Assembly: GCF_031202265.1 (NCBI RefSeq)
Contig: NZ_CP100604.1
Location: 5,810,501-5,874,500, forward strand
DNA from: Bradyrhizobium sp. Ash2021
GTDB lineage: Bacteria > Pseudomonadota > Alphaproteobacteria > Rhizobiales > Xanthobacteraceae
Direction of reading: 5' to 3'
DNA: 64,000 bases
Both the position numbers and the translations under genes were made by a program. Position 1 is the first letter of the stretch. The number at the start of each line of letters is the position of its first letter. The notes below the pieces were generated by a model. It saw only the letters and a program-made list of their open reading frames with translations, was not told where the DNA came from and did not search any database. This document shows, piece after piece, positions 11,192 through 37,972 of the stretch.

Positions 11192-12106
11192 CTATTCCTC
11201 ATCCGCGCCCGGCATCTGTCTCAGCATGAAATGACCGAACGCCGAGGCGATCGGCTTGGTCCGGTCGTCCTGCCAGGCCTGCGCCTCGAAAGCGACGACG
11301 CGCCGGCCCTGCTTGACGATCGACACGCTGGCGTAGCTGTCAAGCGCCCGGCCGGAGCGCAAATAATTGATCGTCAGGCCGATCGGCTTGGGCGGCGCCA
11401 CCCCGAGTTCGCGCGTCACGCCGACGATCGCGGTGGTTTCGAGGAAGGCGCCGGTCATGCCGCCGTGGATGGCGGGCAGCATCGGGTTGCCGATGATCTT
11501 TGGCGAGAACGGCATCACCAGCGTGTCATCGTCGCCGATGCGGATGCCGAGGCAACGTGCGAACGGGCTGTTGGCGAACGGGCCGGCCGGATCCGCCGGC
11601 GCTTCAAGCGCCGGCGGCGCGCCGTCGTTCAACCGCTCGTCCGTCAGCATGTTGGTCCGGTTGGCGCCGATCATGAAGCAGGCGGTTGCGGTGGCGACCG
11701 GATCGTCCTCGGATTCCTGGTAGGCCGTCGAGCGCACGAAGGCGATCGAGCGGGTGACGCGGGAGCAAACCGAATGCGCCTTGATGTCGAGGCCGGGCGT
11801 TGCCGGCTTCTGGTAATCGATGCGCAGGTCGAGCGTGGCGATCGCGCGCGTGCCGTCGAGCGCGATCTGGACGGCCATGCCGCAGCTCTCGTCGAGCATG
11901 GCGGTGACGACGCCGCCGTGAAGAACGCCCGTCGCGGTGTCGCCGACGAAGACGGGGCGGTACGGCAGGCTCGACCAGGCCTCTCCCGGAGCGGCGCGGT
12001 CGAGCCGCAGTCCGCTGATGTAACCGTAGACGGAGCGGCGGCGCGTAATGGCTTCGGCCAGTTCGTCAAACGGCAGCGGCGTGTTCAATATTGGAGCTTT
12101 GGACAT
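11192..12106 (-). CDS. Double-hotdog PaaI-type thioesterase
   Basis: The 304-residue protein contains two hotdog domains in tandem. The first has V-L-H-G-G-V-V-T-A-M-L-D-E-S-C-G (about 62-77); the second has I-H-G-G-M-T-G-A-F-L-E-T-T-A (about 212-225). Both keep the HGG helix motif of PaaI/DUF4442-like acyl-CoA thioesterases; Asp or Glu seven residues later would be the catalytic acid. PaaI family members are usually single-domain, so this is a fused dimer. Acyl-CoA hydrolysis is inferred. Confidence 0.8.
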   Translation of the reverse strand: MSKAPILNTPLPFDELAEAITRRRSVYGYISGLRLDRAAPGEAWSSLPYRPVFVGDTATGVLHGGVVTAMLDESCGMAVQIALDGTRAIATLDLRIDYQKPATPGLDIKAHSVCSRVTRSIAFVRSTAYQESEDDPVATATACFMIGANRTNMLTDERLNDGAPPALEAPADPAGPFANSPFARCLGIRIGDDDTLVMPFSPKIIGNPMLPAIHGGMTGAFLETTAIVGVTRELGVAPPKPIGLTINYLRSGRALDSYASVSIVKQGRRVVAFEAQAWQDDRTKPIASAFGHFMLRQMPGADEE

Positions 12107-37763: not shown

Positions 37764-37793
37764 CTTAACACCGGCAGATTCGCTGCCTATACT
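37764..37793 (+). promoter_or_regulatory. Candidate promoter of the 14-codon ORF
   Basis: CTTAAC (37764-37769) and TATACT (37788-37793) are separated by 18 bases, a plausible sigma-70-like pair. Transcription would begin near 37800, 13 bases before the extended Shine-Dalgarno. Confidence 0.45.
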
Positions 37794-37827
37794 AAGGTCT
37801 TCACAACCAACGAAAGGAGGTGATCCA

Positions 37828-37872
37828 GTGTCTCTTACCAAGCGCTGTCACCTCGCTGGGATCGCCCGCTAA
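37828..37872 (+). CDS. 14-codon ORF with 16S-complementary ribosome-binding site
   Basis: GTG 37828 opens the peptide M-S-L-T-K-R-C-H-L-A-G-I-A-R. Just upstream, AAAGGAGGTGATCCAG (37813-37828) is complementary to all 16 last bases of 16S rRNA (CTGGATCACCTCCTTT). Within the ORF, TCACCTC (37848-37854) is complementary to GAGGTGA of the site, so the transcript can hide its own ribosome-binding site. A promoter and a strong terminator make a compact unit of about 165 nt. Whether the peptide or the RNA matters is unknown. Confidence 0.6.
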   Translation: MSLTKRCHLAGIAR

Positions 37873-37933
37873 GCTCATTTGAGGCTTGGCATCGGGGCGC
37901 TCTCAGCCCTGGACCAGCGAGTTCAAAAGTTGG

Positions 37934-37966
37934 GGCGCGGCGGGCCATCCTGCCGCGCCTTTTTTG
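37934..37966 (+). terminator. Rho-independent terminator
   Basis: GGCGCGGC (37934-37941) pairs with GCCGCGCC (37952-37959), extended by GGG/CCT, and is followed by TTTTTT (37960-37965). It would end the short transcript from near 37800. Confidence 0.88.
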
Positions 37967-37972
37967 TTTGAT

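Follow-up and report, generated by a model that had tools for sequence, protein, structure and literature searches.

The window analyzed here, a 64,000-nucleotide stretch of the Bradyrhizobium sp. Ash2021 genome, carries on its forward strand a compact unit made up of a promoter-like site, a long Shine-Dalgarno (SD) sequence, a very short open reading frame (ORF), and an intrinsic terminator. The promoter-like site is of the sigma-70 type (TTAACA-17 nt-TATACT, positions 37765 to 37793) and scores 10 of 12 matches, with one such site found and 0.4 expected in shuffled sequence; transcription would start near 37799 to 37801. The extended SD, GAAAGGAGGTGATCCAG (37812 to 37828), begins with GAAA (37812 to 37815), contains the 16-mer AAAGGAGGTGATCCAG (37813 to 37828), and shares its last base (37828) with the first base of the GTG start codon. 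The ORF MSLTKRCHLAGIAR (37828 to 37872), read directly from GTG at 37828 to 37830 to TAA at 37870 to 37872, has the 14 codons that an earlier note on this DNA had assigned to it. Within the ORF lie TCACCTC (37848 to 37854), CTCGCTGG (37852 to 37859), and GCTGGGATCGCC (37855 to 37866), the last of which resembles the 16S rRNA end GGCTGGATCACC and could, by prediction, form a duplex with the extended SD. Further downstream, CCAGCGAG (37914 to 37921) precedes the terminator (37932 to 37965), whose stem at 37932 to 37961 has 13 pairs, 10 of them G-C, and is followed by a T run at 37960 to 37965; one terminator was found, where 0.7 would be expected from the pattern alone. The compact unit that the earlier note proposed is supported in having a promoter-like site and a terminator, and the predicted minimum free energy of positions 37798 to 37972 is -83.1 kcal/mol (z = -5.1), with none of 200 shuffles folding as low.

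The signals that frame the unit are also found in its relatives. Across 30 aligned loci of the genus, AACA in the first promoter hexamer and TATAY in the second are kept, and a promoter score of at least 9 of 12 is reached in 60 of 76 elements of the Bradyrhizobium lineage, compared with 0.00 in shuffles; in the other groups (1/42, 6/104, and 4/39) such scores are barely above those of shuffles. No more than 230 nt from the SD, a terminator is found in 69/76 elements of the Bradyrhizobium lineage, 38/42 of the Rhodobacteraceae type, 72/104 CC2171-like elements, and 22/39 of a fourth group, and the terminator-based tests described below are restricted to elements in which our finder located one (69/76, 38/42, 74/104, and 22/39). 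Two side observations concern the window itself. An inverted copy of positions 37882 to 37919, in the 3' half of the element, lies about 190 kb away (38 bases, 97% identical; L002 1501 to 1538 on the reverse strand, genome position 6037918 to 6037955) and, being inverted, is not half of a simple attachment-site pair. ARAGORN calls a tRNA-SeC at window positions 11572 to 11648 of the forward strand, a stretch that contains no Rfam tRNA at gathering scores and that falls within a 304-aa ORF on the opposite strand (11192 to 12106), so that the call is most likely false.

Positions 37812 to 37828 can form a duplex of 17 consecutive complementary bases with the 3' end of alphaproteobacterial 16S rRNA, CTGGATCACCTCCTTTC, with a computed energy of -32.2 kcal/mol and one terminal U left unpaired. 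The 16S 3' end of the genome itself was masked, and a Sinorhizobium record was used instead, in which the terminus is CUCCUUUCU and not CUCCUUU; its last base is what we take to be the end point of mature 16S rRNA. The pairing was described in the earlier note as covering all 16 terminal bases, and the extended match is indeed real, but it comprises 17 consecutive bases that include the G before AAA, and it spares the last U. With the 16S end masked, AAAGGAGGTGATCCAG occurs exactly once in the 9.7-Mb genome, where no site differs by one mismatch and seven differ by two, which confirms that the match at this locus is real and far from chance.

A cmscan search relates the locus to Rfam family RF01867 (CC2171, a Caulobacter sRNA) over the full length of the model (positions 1 to 159 of 159) with 50.2 bits and an E value of 6e-10. 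As the gathering cut-off is 75 bits, we do not file the locus as a member; it is a divergent, sub-threshold relative. The two RNAs are similar in length and near-identical in the block CAAC..CGAAAGGAGGUGAUCCAGUGUCUC around the extended SD, but their bodies differ, with an ORF of 20 to 29 codons in CC2171 and 14 here, an SD that is predicted to be closed by a hairpin here, and a helix between the ORF and the 3' region that begins later in the ORF here. On the window locus, cmscan forces several non-standard pairs in order to form the RF01867 consensus helix between the early ORF and the pre-terminator region, while the helix supported in Bradyrhizobium lies later in the ORF and codons 2 to 8 show no cognate advantage (24/69).

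The locus is found in 93 of 98 genomes of the genus (90 of the 92 good assemblies), and none of the seven genus genomes that were listed for RF01867 exceeds its cut-off. At the level of the order, 123 of 249 genomes contain RF01867 matches at an E value of at most 0.001 and 19 of the 249 score above the cut-off, which is also passed by 9 of 18 chosen relatives and failed by one Bradyrhizobium, three Rhodobacteraceae, and five further loci. The exact head of the element was recovered at 117 or more loci, and among the matches listed, 100 are labeled as alphaproteobacterial, 4 are labeled only 'Proteobacteria' or 'Pseudomonadota', and 13, which may or may not be homologous, carry other labels (Planctomycetota-type, 6; Krumholzibacteriia, Lujinxingiaceae, Myxococcales, Deltaproteobacteria, SAR92, Cellvibrionales, and Nitrosomonadales, one each); in 115 of the 117 listed, the ORF does not exceed 35 codons. 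The exact 18-mer with GTG or ATG as the start was present in 41 of 398 genomes of a phylum-wide sample, all of them from the same class or closer, and a class-wide count of the 15-mer with up to one mismatch (145 of 385 genomes) was disregarded because it mixes the element with unrelated sites. A phage collection gave no match to the element, and a plasmid collection gave one 34-base match of the window sequence, in the head.

Several of these distant loci merit a separate description. With a Rhizobium-type query (L109), relatives were seen in seven records filed as plasmids (H9 to H15), from Azospirillum, Skermanella, and Methylobacterium. Ten loci from the Planctomycetota-type, Krumholzibacteriia, Lujinxingiaceae, Myxococcales, and Deltaproteobacteria matches (L071, L072, L074, L080, L131, L170, L079, L100, L113, and L142) combine the exact head with ORFs of 9 to 16 codons, and by eye several of them also have a terminator-like hairpin. 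In the SAR92 cluster (L118) and Cellvibrionales (L149) loci, a terminator-like hairpin comes after the exact head, within the ORF and ahead of any stop codon, so that transcription ending at this hairpin would yield a non-stop mRNA.

To examine the conservation of the match, 40 lower-scoring RF01867 hits were picked by hand with genomes of the same genus excluded, a choice that avoids selecting by the exact site, and one mis-located hit (L286) was dropped. In the 39 that were used, the 17-mer can pair with 16S rRNA at 17 positions in 14 loci, 16 in 22, 15 in 2, and 13 in 1, so that pairing at 15 or more of the 17 positions is preserved in 38 of 39 and the best other 17-mer per locus reaches 11 to 14, in a sample biased toward keeping the SD block because the RF01867 model contains it. 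The ORF and the RNA body vary widely among the same hits, which is the opposite of the pattern that the earlier note had set against its own proposal, namely, relatives that lose the complementarity and keep the rest. The last base of the 17-mer is the one most commonly lost, as many relatives start with ATG and not GTG, and 17 of 24 departures at positions 0 to 15 are A-to-G or C-to-T changes that preserve a G-U pair with 16S rRNA. Similarly, a scan at family level found the 18-mer, exact or with a single mismatch, in 88 of 149 genomes (none for the reversed control), and 17 of 18 one-mismatch sites preserve such a G-U pair; as transitions are involved and related genomes are not independent, these changes lend support and are not proof. 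The 16S complementarity is among the best-kept parts of the RNA and belongs to its conserved core, and the conservation that the earlier note had proposed to look for across Rhizobiales extends well beyond that order.

An ordinary base-pairing sRNA acting in trans, in which the SD and ORF serve stability or, in the manner of dual-function sRNAs, an additional role, would agree with the filing of RF01867 as an sRNA, with the invariant GGGCG and CCTGGACCAGCGAG of the 30 genus loci, and with the 215-nt RF01867 transcript MH_s33 detected by RNA-seq in Mesorhizobium huakuii, as given in the portion of that report at hand (PMC5596092). The best-conserved part, on the other hand, is the ribosome site, and we consider this explanation unlikely for the window locus.

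ORF lengths were compared in 239 loci that remained after removal of duplicates and of loci with too little sequence, 17 of which were classed as 'other'. In frame 0, the length is 14 codons in 72 of 76 elements of the Bradyrhizobium lineage, 23 to 25 in 81 of 104 CC2171-like elements, and 18 in all 42 of the Rhodobacteraceae type, a figure that is partly circular because that class is defined in part by length 18, with no ORF of this type and another length among the 17 others; frames +1 and +2 give scattered lengths. Every length group makes use of all three stop codons, as illustrated by the 72 ORFs of 14 codons in the Bradyrhizobium lineage (TAA, 29; TAG, 31; TGA, 12). Across five length groups, pN/pS is 0.87 to 1.32 in frame and 0.65 to 1.19 out of frame; two groups (0.90 and 0.90) are slightly under both of their shifted frames (0.94 to 1.06), the other three are not, and selection on the peptide is not seen by this measure in these groups. 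The peptides of 14, 18, and 20 to 29 residues are dissimilar between lineages, and Ser is the usual second residue.

A plain small-protein gene, in which an unusually strong SD serves to make the peptide as the product, could account for the lineage-constant length and stop, the usual Ser in second place, and the presence of a promoter-like site and a terminator. Such a gene is difficult to reconcile with the in-frame pN/pS values, three of five of which are not below those of the shifted frames, with the dissimilar peptides, and with a 17-base match beyond any need, and it appears improbable. The plain reading would instead be that selection acts on where the ribosome starts and stops, and not on the amino acids beyond what RNA pairing demands. 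The lineage-fixed ORF lengths and these pN/pS values agree with the idea, touched on in the earlier note, that it is translation more than the peptide that counts.

The predicted structure adds a second layer to the 16S match. In the full fold, the SD is closed by a hairpin, here called H1 (37817 to 37854), in which positions 37817 to 37823 and 37826 to 37831 pair with 37842 to 37854, TCACCTC included. A second helix, H2, is formed between CTCGCTGG as its 5' strand, the first three bases of which are shared with H1, and CCAGCGAG as its 3' strand. Both were assessed in an alignment of 44 of the 68 distinct references of the Bradyrhizobium lineage, with the window taking the place of L001. All 13 pairs of H1 are formed in 44 of 44 sequences and 11 are invariant, so that H1 is without covariation support because its pairs hardly vary, and several of its pairs are broken in 2 of the 76 elements of the lineage. 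For H2, 99.1% of cells are paired, a value reached by none of 500 shuffles and falling to at most 46% when the strands are slid; seven of eight pairs are invariant, and the support rests on one variable pair, the outer one (GC, 33; AU, 6; GU, 2; unpaired, 3; n = 44). The covariation proposed as a check by the earlier note is accordingly absent from H1 and visible in H2 at that single pair. As CTC at 37852 to 37854 takes part in both helices and both of its partners are invariant, an exchange between H1 and H2 would be possible.

Pairing between the ORF and the 3' region was further assessed by a cognate test, in which the duplex of each ORF with its own pre-terminator region was compared with duplexes formed with the regions of relatives in 200 permutations. 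The cognate duplex beats all 200 permutations in the Bradyrhizobium lineage, the CC2171-like group, and the divergent Rhizobiales, there is no such advantage in the Rhodobacteraceae type (193 of 200 permutations as good), and control segments downstream of the terminator show none in any of the four groups. Consensus folding with RNAalifold gave almost no common structure for the CC2171-like alignment (-2.7 kcal/mol) and a poor one for the Rhodobacteraceae type except for the terminator and a start-codon hairpin. For RF01867 itself, Rfam 15 has added one covarying pair, according to the section of that release paper available to us (PMC11701678). By eye, GGCAGCCCTT, which lies right after the stop codon in Rhodobacteraceae loci such as L064 and L067, is a possible partner for the 5' terminator arm and may represent an anti-terminator masked by a ribosome at the stop.

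How the SD is closed appears to differ between lineages. Pairing of the SD with downstream sequence exceeds that of dinucleotide shuffles (p of at most 0.05) in 86% of Bradyrhizobium elements (n = 76), 44% of CC2171-like elements, and 14% of the Rhodobacteraceae type. As bare duplexes, the best partner of the SD in the Bradyrhizobium lineage is GCTGGGATCGCC in 68 of 76 elements (mean z of -2.19 against shuffles) and TCACCTC in 6 of 76, while the full predicted fold uses TCACCTC. The proposal in the earlier note that TCACCTC closes the SD therefore agrees with the full fold but holds for the Bradyrhizobium lineage only, and we reject this 'antidote' as a general feature of the family. More broadly, the idea that the SD can be closed within the same molecule is borne out by prediction, with a probability of being unpaired for GGAGG of 0.18 in the Bradyrhizobium lineage and 0.01 in the Rhodobacteraceae type, where closure is predicted to involve the pre-terminator stretch about 110 nt downstream. 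A closed SD is not family-wide, as GGAGG (0.38 and 0.32) and the start codon (0.61 and 0.59) are predicted to be partly open in the CC2171-like and divergent groups, respectively. A thermosensor, also considered in the earlier note, is rejected, since the predicted accessibility of the SD is flat between 15 and 50 C, with GGAGG unpaired at a probability of 0.197 to 0.198.

In the Bradyrhizobium lineage, GAAA, at the 5' end of the extended SD, is predicted to be unpaired with a mean probability of 0.82, and GGAGGTGA with a probability of 0.13 (n = 69 elements in both cases); for GAAA, the corresponding values are 0.53 in the Rhodobacteraceae type, 0.81 in the CC2171-like group, and 0.70 in the divergent group. 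A closed SD together with an unpaired stretch that matches a trigger is thus predicted in these 69 elements, and GAAA may serve as a toehold for the UUUC of 16S rRNA. Opening the whole site is predicted to cost 9.2, 11.0, 3.9, and 5.4 kcal/mol in the Bradyrhizobium, Rhodobacteraceae-type, CC2171-like, and divergent groups, respectively, and the duplex formed with the 16S tail is computed at -32.2 kcal/mol for the full 17-base site, -17.0 kcal/mol for AAAGGAGGUGA, and -8.7 kcal/mol for GGAGG alone. With 5 to 7 bases, an SD duplex (-8.7 to -10.7 kcal/mol) would hardly cover the predicted 9 kcal/mol of opening, whereas the long site (-17 to -32 kcal/mol) would easily do so.

The genomic neighborhood bears on whether the unit acts alone. 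A divergent tRNA-Gly(UCC) adjoins it in all 30 Bradyrhizobium loci examined and in none of seven loci from the other genera of the family. In the Rhodobacteraceae type, the order on the same strand is a queuosine-precursor transporter (40/42), the element, and arfB (37/42; L062 to L173), with a gap of 11 to 140 nt between terminator and arfB in 30 loci, and RNase R lies downstream in 6 of 104 CC2171-like loci (Bosea and a Methylobacterium), within 300 nt in five. By tblastn, arfB was found solely in the Rhodobacteraceae type and RNase R solely in those six loci, in a set in which many loci have short flanks; the three gene names are supported by NCBIfam in one example each. ArfB acts in ribosome rescue and RNase R in RNA decay, and the link to rescue genes is a notable one.

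Given these arrangements, it could be proposed that the element is a leader that attenuates transcription of the next gene, arfB in Rhodobacteraceae and RNase R in Bosea and a Methylobacterium. In the window, no co-transcribed gene lies directly downstream and the next same-strand ORF of at least 80 aa starts about 450 nt past the terminator; a kinase-like gene downstream in 13 of 76 loci of the Bradyrhizobium lineage is on the opposite strand; and several arfB copies have, by eye, a TANNNT box about 6 to 10 nt before the ATG, which suggests a leaderless promoter of their own. A role as leader is therefore very unlikely. The change of neighbors by lineage while the unit stays argues for a unit acting alone, and so do the lack of a ribosome-rescue neighbor in the window, the lineage-limited occurrence of arfB and RNase R, and the apparent self-promotion of arfB. 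Our reading is therefore that of a free-standing unit, plausibly a structured small mRNA of about 150 to 170 nt.

When these results are combined, we favor, with a probability of about 0.5, the reading that the locus encodes a small structured mRNA that is opened by the 30S subunit through toehold invasion, and in which the act of translation and its end point matter and the peptide does not. It builds on a conserved unit, a conserved 16S complementarity, a fixed ORF length without visible selection on the peptide, and lineage-specific pairing between the ORF and the 3' region. The RNA looks built to respond to ribosomes because the conserved 16S match stands right before a tiny ORF. The locus would then be one member of a widely distributed alphaproteobacterial small-mRNA gene, of which the Rfam CC2171 family may be the part already described. 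In Bradyrhizobium, the SD core is predicted to be folded away with GAAA exposed, and a free 30S subunit would pair the UUUC of its 16S rRNA with GAAA and thereby open the hairpin by displacement. The RNA would then work like a toehold switch that occurs in nature and is triggered by the 16S tail. A helix reaching the start codon cannot persist with that codon in the P site of the ribosome, and the last bases of the match would therefore have to be released before initiation; AAAGGAGGUGA may be the part able to stay paired, and pairing over the full match would represent a state of capture or braking. The short ORF, the translation of which is implied by its conservation, would then be read to its fixed stop, and transit of the ribosome would melt the helix between the ORF and the pre-terminator region, giving the RNA 'ribosome-engaged' and 'ribosome-free' shapes that may differ in stability or in some activity in trans.

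The same geometry lends itself to a different proposal, as pairing up to the start codon excludes occupancy of the P site and part of the match thus seems surplus to initiation. The RNA could be a 30S decoy, a ribosomal counterpart of 6S RNA, whose tight binding of the 16S tail mainly withdraws free 30S subunits and whose ORF only releases the ribosome. The 17-base complementarity (-32.2 kcal/mol) and the lack of visible peptide selection would suit a decoy, but it would have to approach ribosomes in abundance, would not need the kept ORF length and stop, and would gain little from an SD that is predicted to be closed in two lineages, which leaves it unlikely. The extended SD would also bind any small RNA with a CUCCU-type seed, and it could be speculated to act as a sponge for small RNAs with anti-SD seeds, much as CrfA in Caulobacter sponges SisA-D, sRNAs with an anti-SD-like motif in common, in the account given in the part of that paper at hand (PMC12559287). 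Such seeds need only the GGAGG part, whereas conservation of the match also takes in GATCCAG and GAAA, which fit 16S rRNA, and a sponge appears highly improbable.

Synthetic toehold switches consist of a closed SD hairpin and an unpaired complementary 5' stretch and are opened by a trigger RNA. The locus resembles them in its predicted closed SD hairpin with an unpaired stretch on the 5' side, but it is natural, and its presumed trigger is the ribosome's own 16S tail. The rnTrpL (trpL) leader of Sinorhizobium meliloti is likewise a short RNA with a 14-codon ORF and a dual-function sRNA, but as described in the sections available it is leaderless, starts at the AUG, and is a trp attenuator (PMC10117765), whereas the SD of the locus is very long and the window shows no operon there. 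In Staphylococcus aureus, extended SD motifs also pair with the anti-SD for longer than usual, but in the part of that study at hand they concern initiation species-wide (PMC13009471), whereas here a single RNA family is involved and the match reaches the start codon. Two earlier Caulobacter ncRNAs were reported as translated, with no names given in the portion of the article seen (Schrader et al. 2014, PMC4117421). In the portions of the open-access literature searched, neither the SD-ORF layout of the CC2171 family nor a function for CC2171 is described; the accessible parts of PMC5082802, PMC12218461, and PMC4842269 contain nothing on this RNA, and a term search of PMC5521070 was empty. The family is thus partly known as RF01867, and what the literature searched did not show is the near-complete complementarity to the 16S tail, the ORF of fixed length without conserved sequence, and the spread beyond the Rfam cut-off.

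These features can be used to delimit a group of extended-SD small mRNAs, in which at least 15 of 17 positions directly before the start codon are pairable with 16S rRNA; the window locus has 17 of 17, followed by an ORF of lineage-fixed length and then a terminator. The RF01867 family is drawn too narrowly, as the seven genus genomes and the Bradyrhizobium and three Rhodobacteraceae loci fall below its cut-off. To our knowledge, the direct sensing of free ribosomes by bacteria is an open question, and putative sensing or titration of free 30S subunits, as suggested in the earlier note, is consistent with the observations. It is possible, though we hold this only tentatively, that the RNA is an ancient natural toehold switch triggered by the 16S 3' tail, which reports or buffers free, initiation-competent 30S subunits and is reset by short translation independent of the peptide. 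As the 16S complementarity and the ORF length are both kept, ribosome sensing could be tested through compensatory changes in the 16S tail and the SD. An RNA present in many alphaproteobacteria, and in part filed as an sRNA, matches nearly the whole free 16S tail before an ORF of kept length, and the mechanism proposed here, if shown, would be a new variant.
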